A DNA stretch of 40,708 nt from Lacticaseibacillus camelliae DSM 22697 = JCM 13995 (lineage in GTDB: Bacteria; Bacillota; Bacilli; Lactobacillales; Lactobacillaceae), in NCBI RefSeq assembly GCF_001311195.1, contig NZ_BBAJ01000017.1:1-40708 (forward strand), given 5' to 3'. Both the position numbers and the translations under genes were made by a program. Below the pieces are notes generated by a model. It ran no database searches, was not told where the DNA came from, and saw only the letters and a list, made by a program, of their open reading frames with translations. Positions 22,822-23,032 of the stretch are shown one piece after another. Every line of letters starts with the position of its first letter. Position 1 is the stretch's first letter.

Positions 22822-22855
22822 AAAAAAAAGCCGCCGCAGATCACTCTGCGGCGGC
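22822..22855 (-). terminator. Rho-independent terminator on the minus strand
   Basis: GCCGCCGCAGA (22830-22840) pairs perfectly with TCTGCGGCGGC (22845-22855), 4-base loop. The run of eight A at 22822-22829 becomes T8 only when read on the minus strand; on the plus strand no T run follows. Confidence 0.85.
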
Positions 22856-22997
22856 ACCACGTGGTTTATTGCGAAGGGCCCAGATAAATTCTCACTATCG
22901 AAAACGACAACCAACCAGATTTTCTTTTAACGCATCGCTGCGCGGAACTCTTAATCGAATTAATCGATCACGTATGACACTCTAGCTGGGTCCTTCG
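22822..22997 (-). ncRNA. Candidate minus-strand small RNA, about 175 nt
   Basis: Between queA and tgt, on the strand opposite to both. A promoter-like pair (see 23003-23032) would start transcription at about 22996-22997. The transcript's first 12 bases (complement of 22986-22997) pair with the complement of 22872-22883, 11 of 12 positions, closing a domain of 102 bases; inside are small hairpins, one with a GCGA loop. After the closing stem comes a perfect 11-bp terminator with eight T. A terminal closing stem starting at the very 5' end, about 175-200 nt length and a following terminator are features shared with 6S RNA, but I cannot confirm the family. No open frame on this strand. Confidence 0.5.
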
Positions 22998-23002
22998 TAG
23001 TG

Positions 23003-23032
23003 ACTATAACACCGTGTCATTACTCACTGCAA
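23003..23032 (-). promoter_or_regulatory. Putative promoter of the candidate small RNA
   Basis: On the minus strand TTGCAG (23027-23032), 18-base spacer, TATAGT (23003-23008). It points at the base of the closing stem of the RNA. Confidence 0.45.

Follow-up and report, generated by a model that had tools for sequence, protein, structure and literature searches.

A probable stand-alone small RNA gene in the queA-tgt spacer of Lacticaseibacillus camelliae, different from 6S RNA

Few small RNAs beyond 6S have, to our knowledge, been described in food and probiotic lactobacilli. Among the Firmicutes more generally, RsaI and RsaOG of Staphylococcus are examples of small RNAs controlled by CcpA. 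The 6S RNA of lactic acid bacteria is reported to be encoded once in each species, in most cases with rarA and uspA as flanking genes; its structure has helical arms on either side of a central bulge, and more than a third of the genes have a cre site (PMC8414754). The stretch of DNA considered here (the window) is 40,708 nt long and comes from L. camelliae DSM 22697 = JCM 13995 (contig NZ_BBAJ01000017.1). The predicted RNA in its queA-tgt gap is like the RsaI/RsaOG type in appearing to be a stand-alone intergenic gene, with a cre-like site over the -35 in some relatives; it differs in having no Rfam match, so that no sequence kinship to these RNAs is shown, and no cre site in the clade of the window. 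With the 6S RNA (RF00013) of Lactobacillaceae it shares its size, a closing stem at the 5' end, its own terminator and, in some species, a cre site near the promoter, while differing in core sequence, in locus (queA-tgt rather than downstream of rarA) and in a branched predicted fold (PMC8414754). The reading favored here, with moderate confidence, is that the gap contains a stand-alone gene whose product is a structured, non-coding regulatory RNA about 175 nt long, likely trans-acting and, in some clades, probably repressed by CcpA. In the titles and abstract openings of the open-licence papers listed on small RNAs of the genus, on small RNAs at queA or tgt, and on CcpA-linked small RNAs of lactobacilli, this RNA is not described, which is weak evidence on the point. 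The features of the gap and its neighbors are:

21658..22692, plus strand: queA, from the ORF list; convergent neighbor, with a homologous gene beside tgt in relatives
22822..22855, minus strand: intrinsic terminator, an 11-pair hairpin with a loop of 4 (22855-22830) followed by T8 (22829-22822)
22822..22997, minus strand: predicted small RNA transcript of about 175 nt, with equivalent units in relatives
22872..22883, minus strand: 3' arm of the closing stem, CTGGGCCCTTCG; 11 of 12 standard pairs, covarying in relatives
22914..22974, minus strand: conserved core, matched by covariance model R1 (E 8.1e-12, 70.7 bits; the single match in the genome, with the locus in the training set)
22918..22930, minus strand: A-rich stretch UUAAAAGAAAAUC, a candidate interaction site (alignment A2)
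22931..22942, minus strand: core hairpin CGCA-GCGA-UGCG with a GNRA-type loop (alignment A2; a compensatory change distinguishes loci L145 and L144)
22965..22971, minus strand: GUGAUCG (alignment A2)
22986..22997, minus strand: 5' arm of the closing stem, CGAAGGACCCAG; pairing as for the 3' arm
23003..23032, minus strand: promoter read from the sequence, with a -35-like TTGCAG (23032-23027), an 18-base spacer and a -10 TATAGT (23008-23003)
23011-23010, minus strand: extended TG of the -10, inside the promoter spacer
23055..24194, plus strand: tgt, from the ORF list; divergent neighbor, with homologues in relatives

The names queA and tgt were also given in the initial annotation. That annotation had placed a candidate small RNA gene in the gap, opposite to both neighbors, and its description of the parts agrees with what is found here. 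Both neighbors are on the plus strand and the unit is on the minus strand; the closing stem, re-read from the sequence, begins immediately, with CGAAGGACCCAG and CTGGGCCCTTCG enclosing 102 bases; and a terminator scan reported the intrinsic terminator on the minus strand only. The promoter-like pair is likewise present, with its extended -10, although the -35 is poor and a strict promoter rule scored 0 sites at this position. Placed from the -10, the 5' end of the RNA would lie near 22997-22995, and the 3' end would fall within the T-run. No tRNA or tmRNA was found in the window.

Compared with shuffled sequences, the 176-nt RNA has a folding z-score of -5.11, the 126-nt domain without the terminator one of -3.25, and the terminator part (22822-22871) one of -5.51. 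The interior alone (22886-22985) folds no better than its shuffles (z -0.09, with 91 of 200 equally good). The z-scores of the whole RNA and of the domain without the terminator, together with recurrence in relatives with a covarying closing stem, are why the unit is considered to exceed chance.

A 246-base stretch covering the unit matched 10 of 60 genomes by BLAST, the source genome included, and over its match G018 is 95% identical to the window. With tgt as an anchor, which was matched in 23 of 30 genomes of the genus, 22 queA-tgt spacers could be read; the G024 locus L021, which has no queA, was left out. Fourteen of the 22, including that of the window, contain an equivalent unit on the unchanged strand, consisting of a -10-like hexamer, closing stem, core and terminator, and eight do not. 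The terminator belonging to the small RNA strand is present in all 14 of these spacers, and the -10-like hexamer, judged by eye, is about 4-8 bases 5' of the closing stem in the 14 spacers and in two further loci described below (L145 and L146). In nine pairs of sister species the domain shows 91-100% identity. From the terminator to the queA stop codon, with length differences counted as mismatches, identity is just 13-57% in eight of these nine pairs, the remaining one (L011/L012) being 95% identical.

The initial annotation had named covariation in related genomes as a check, and the closing stem does covary. The sequence of the arms varies between clades and the pairing is kept: 88 of 90 pairs are standard over nine distinct arm pairs, counted at 10 positions with an ungapped script after collapsing 16 loci, L146 included. 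Pairing a 5' arm with the 3' arm of another version gives 5.0 of 10 pairs on average. When the arms are swapped among seven clade versions the average is 4.5 of 10 and the maximum 9, and in a permutation test of these seven, 2 of 20000 permutations reached the observed 68 of 70, which is about the rate at which the identity permutation is expected.

Within the closing stem, the core has a recognizable layout: GUGAUCG, about 20 variable bases, and then GUUCCRCGCAGCGAUGCGUUARAAGAAAAUC in most loci, with L018, L025 and L030 differing in places. The core hairpin reads CGCG-UUCA-CGCG in L145 versus CGCA-AGUU-UGCG in L144, a compensatory A-U to G-C change; for L030 the prediction lacks this hairpin (mean pair probability 0.01). 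Across eight sequences, the middle of UUAAAAGAAAAUC has a mean unpaired probability of 0.39-0.84, compared with 0.31 for its first U and 0.27 and 0.14 for its last U and C. R1, a covariance model of the core, was built from eight sequences from eight genomes with the structure set by hand; three pairs outside the hairpin are hand-set and poorly supported. It gave one match each in 16 of the 30 genomes of the genus, 15 of them at E <= 7.8e-6, the value for L145, which is outside the training set, and a weak one (0.094) in G026. A family sample of 397 genomes, to which stricter filters apply and in which 26 of the listed rows are from the genus, yielded 14 matches, all in Lacticaseibacillus, and no match outside the genus.

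When named genomes were scanned with a pattern, 12 matches were obtained. Nine are in Lacticaseibacillus species (suilingensis, zeae, chiayiensis, jixianensis, hegangensis, mingshuiensis, brantae, suibinensis and yichunensis); of the remaining three, one is in a 1002-codon open frame and two are in T-box-like leaders. These leaders (L124 and L125) look like T-boxes. They share with the core a short string of the hairpin and GUUA, in which CGCA-GNGA-UGCG is followed by UUAAAA (L124 1711-1731, L125 881-901); the likeness has the look of coincidence, or of two unrelated sequences converging on a hairpin of the GNRA type, and is probably one or the other. A T-box leader in the gap (RF00230) was itself rejected as a candidate: there was no match at E 10, and no gene follows on the same strand, what lies beyond the terminator being only the antisense of queA. 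Plasmid and phage records contained no match to the unit, and a viral scan with the core string gave four contigs, none with the closing stem and terminator when inspected by eye.

The core might instead encode a small protein, the string VPRSDALKE being readable in one frame. This frame is open from ATG in L015 and L016 and from GTG in L026-L029 and L032, and by hand also from GTG in L025, where there is no end within the scanned stretch. However, in a scan for ORFs of at least 10 aa ending within 190 bases, none in the VPRSDALKE frame was listed for L011, L012, L013, L018, L030 or L145, and no ORF was consistent across the 16 loci of the genus. By hand, a conserved GTG shares this frame at some loci but not at others, the residues flanking VPRSDALKE are not conserved, and no ribosome binding site was seen by eye. 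Given the inconsistent ORFs and unconserved flanks, this reading was rejected and is regarded as very improbable.

The 6S-like part of the initial annotation fared less well than the gene itself: conservation gives good support to a minus-strand gene of about 175 nt, whereas the likeness to 6S is one of outline. The case for the RNA being this organism's 6S, or a second one of the 6S-2 kind that binds RNA polymerase, is that the two resemble each other in length, in the closing stem and in having a terminator of their own, and that some relatives have cre sites, as reported for 6S of lactic acid bacteria (PMC8414754). Against this, RF00013 had no match in the window at the gathering threshold, nor in 22700-23160 at E 10, and a profile built from 19 6S RNAs of the same family likewise matched neither the window nor any of 12 queA-tgt-type loci at E 10. 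The same profile matches 20 of 21 loci downstream of rarA, the miss being L114 of G024. The source genome has its own 6S gene of lactobacillar type downstream of a rarA gene (L095, E 8.8e-13), 6S of lactic acid bacteria being single copy and usually found between rarA and uspA (PMC8414754), and G009 carries both RNAs (L030 of the queA-tgt type and L089 as 6S). Single-sequence folds predicted for the queA-tgt RNA are branched, with an interior no better than shuffles, rather than rod-like with a central bulge. With no RF00013 or profile match, another locus and a separate 6S gene, 6S identity is largely refuted, and we consider it extremely doubtful.

The 6S genes of the genus were recognized by reading downstream of rarA. 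RF00013 scores them at 21-32 bits in the six loci for which it was reported (L089, L095, L096, L097, L107 and L112, all downstream of rarA; 23.8 for L095 and 32 for L097), below its cut-off of 46.4. It reported nothing in the source genome (0 of 1), nor in the five genomes of the genus among those listed from a 121-genome family sample. Rfam annotation thus misses 6S in Lacticaseibacillus where RF00013 was reported, and because the genus 6S scores fall under the cut-off, a guess at 6S from outline can mislead.

The Rfam check suggested in the initial annotation matched the queA-tgt RNA to no family at all, 6S included. Nine sources compared with the relatives' loci at E 5 gave only a sub-threshold sR10 (17.8 of 45 bits). 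Spot 42 (RF00021) was rejected at 28.5 bits against a gathering score of 80; it aligned mainly at the terminator, and the closing stem and core of the queA-tgt RNA are outside that family. Matches to miRNA families in the gap were set aside as terminator or hairpin noise. Lacto-rpoB (RF01709) had no match in the source genome (0 of 1), and Lacto-usp (RF01710) none in 30 genomes of the genus, a result that is uninformative, as its controls were also without a match.

The RNA also occurs apart from its usual neighbors. Seven genomes of the genus have no tgt match, and among these the RNA was found in G026 only (L146), complete with a -10 TATAAT, closing stem TGCGGGGCG/TGCCCCGCA, core and terminator. 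It lies there between ruvB and an ORF that we take to encode a YajC-like protein, opposite to both, and no queA is present in the 3-kb locus around it. In G024, about 1.7 kb of other DNA separates the RNA (L145) from tgt. Because G026 keeps it at the ruvB/yajC-like locus, the small RNA can stand without tgt, as seen in this one genome. This bears on whether it is a cis-antisense RNA, acting on the overlapped queA-tgt mRNA by duplex formation or transcriptional interference. Its promoter points away from tgt and transcription would oppose the operon through the queA-tgt spacer, as expected for such a role, but the arrangements in G026 and G024 speak against it, as does the conservation of the domain and core and not of the stretch adjacent to queA. 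A cis-antisense role is accordingly judged quite unlikely.

For other genera, 30 genomes were searched with tgt; 27 matched, and 20 had a readable queA-tgt spacer. Units of similar layout are present in two of the 20, those of G062 (the single genome sampled of its genus) and G084, on the same strand as the Lacticaseibacillus unit. In g50, the genus of G084, an RNA of like layout was found in all seven readable spacers, an eighth locus without queA being left out of the count. The ends of these RNAs vary: a hairpin and a T-run of at least five follow the closing stem in four of seven (L149, L177, L178 and L179), L182 has an imperfect closing stem and a hairpin with TTT only, and L181 and L183 have their T-run directly after the closing stem. 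In an alignment of six g50 sequences, leaving out L147 and also L183 (nearly identical to L181), both sides have changed in 11 of 19 closing-stem pairs and in 16 of 34 pairs overall. The best-conserved motifs in this alignment are UCUCCAU (6 of 6), whose CAU is predicted to form part of a short hairpin, and CACCCC (5 of 6). Read across the g50 RNAs (L177-L179, L181-L183 and L149), UCUCCAUUAGC is almost invariant; it and CACCCC resemble pairing seeds against ribosome binding sites. R1 has no significant match to the g50 RNAs, the best at an RNA being E 3.7 (L177), and since it does not reach them, any kinship between the Lacticaseibacillus and g50 RNAs would rest on place, strand and layout.

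The promoters of the g50 RNAs have the sequence TTGWAAGCGCT over the -35, which is cre-like, with one or two mismatches in seven loci. Mismatches are counted against a general cre consensus. Sites with one mismatch are found at L018, L146, L147, L149, L177 and L178, where 2-6 of 1000 shuffles were as good; for the g50 sites with two mismatches, 41-70 of 1000 were. Fourteen of the 16 loci of the genus, including the window, have no good cre, their best sites having 3-5 mismatches with at least 199 of 1000 shuffles as good. This includes the clade of the window (L011-L013), with 3-4 mismatches at best and 199-766 of 1000 shuffles as good. Judging from these sites, CcpA probably represses the small RNA during growth on preferred sugars in g50, at L147 and at two of the 16 loci of the genus, and catabolite control may perhaps apply to it in part of its range.

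Presence of the RNA was also compared with a Tgt tree, in which the g50 and L147 RNAs were labelled as one RNA with that of the genus, L021 (of G024, a genome in which R1 finds the RNA) was left out for its locus without queA, and only L034 was used of the split tgt match in G025. Presence at the locus needs four changes on this tree, versus 9.0 for shuffled labels, and 0 of 500 label shuffles were as low, a comparison in which near-copies favor a low count. Each half of the genus includes loci with the RNA. As eight of the 22 genus rows lack it, and only G026 of the seven genomes without tgt has it, the RNA is dispensable. Its distribution fits an early presence with several losses, which the tree does not prove. 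A wider reading can be offered tentatively, at somewhat less than even chances: the queA-tgt gap would be home to an old family of closed-stem small RNAs that predates the split between Lacticaseibacillus and g50, was originally controlled by CcpA, has had its interior largely rewritten between the genera, and can outlive its neighbors. It is put lower because the g50 terminators are uneven. If true, food and probiotic bacteria would have a so far undescribed regulator that responds to the carbon source.

For the stand-alone regulatory RNA favored here, the following course of events can be envisaged. Its own promoter would drive transcription against the ruvB-queA-tgt direction, and its own terminator would end the transcript. 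The 5' end would then pair with the sequence preceding the terminator to form the closing stem, so that the end is tucked away, and the stem would hold a branched domain with the GNRA-type hairpin and the conserved A-rich stretch. Being conserved and partly unpaired, that stretch may be a contact site for target mRNAs or for a protein. Base pairing in trans appears the likeliest mode of action, and in clades with a cre-like site over the -35, CcpA would repress the gene. The RNA might also act mainly through a bound protein, by sequestration or as part of a structural ribonucleoprotein, instead of by pairing with mRNAs. The closed stem, the GNRA-type hairpin and, in Lacticaseibacillus, a conserved A-rich stretch that lacks a C-rich seed would suit this mode, but UCUCCAU and CACCCC in g50 resemble pairing seeds, and a mainly protein-bound role is considered rather unlikely. 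If a trans-acting RNA is correct, a conserved structured small RNA would be added to food and probiotic lactobacilli such as L. zeae and L. chiayiensis.

Several smaller observations were made in and around the gap. The window has two overlapping ORFs in different frames (24989-25762 and 25759-27432); together they resemble what we take to be one bifunctional AdhE, split either by a break in the gene or by an error in sequencing. For the source assembly, the listed completeness is 84.5% and the listed contamination 5.9%. Between the closing stem and the terminator, on the minus strand at 22857-22864, is a palindrome, CCACGTGG, which is kept in L011-L013, L015, L016, L018 and L145 despite differing flanks and was not seen in other clades. 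The region between the queA stop codon and the terminator (22693-22821) is G+C-rich and contains the inverted repeats GCTTCGGTGAGC and GCTCACCTCAGC. Alike but different palindromic stretches were seen by eye in the queA-tgt or rarA-downstream spacers of L013, L014, L015, L017, L068, L073 and L074, and this suggests that such intergenic repeats form a family.
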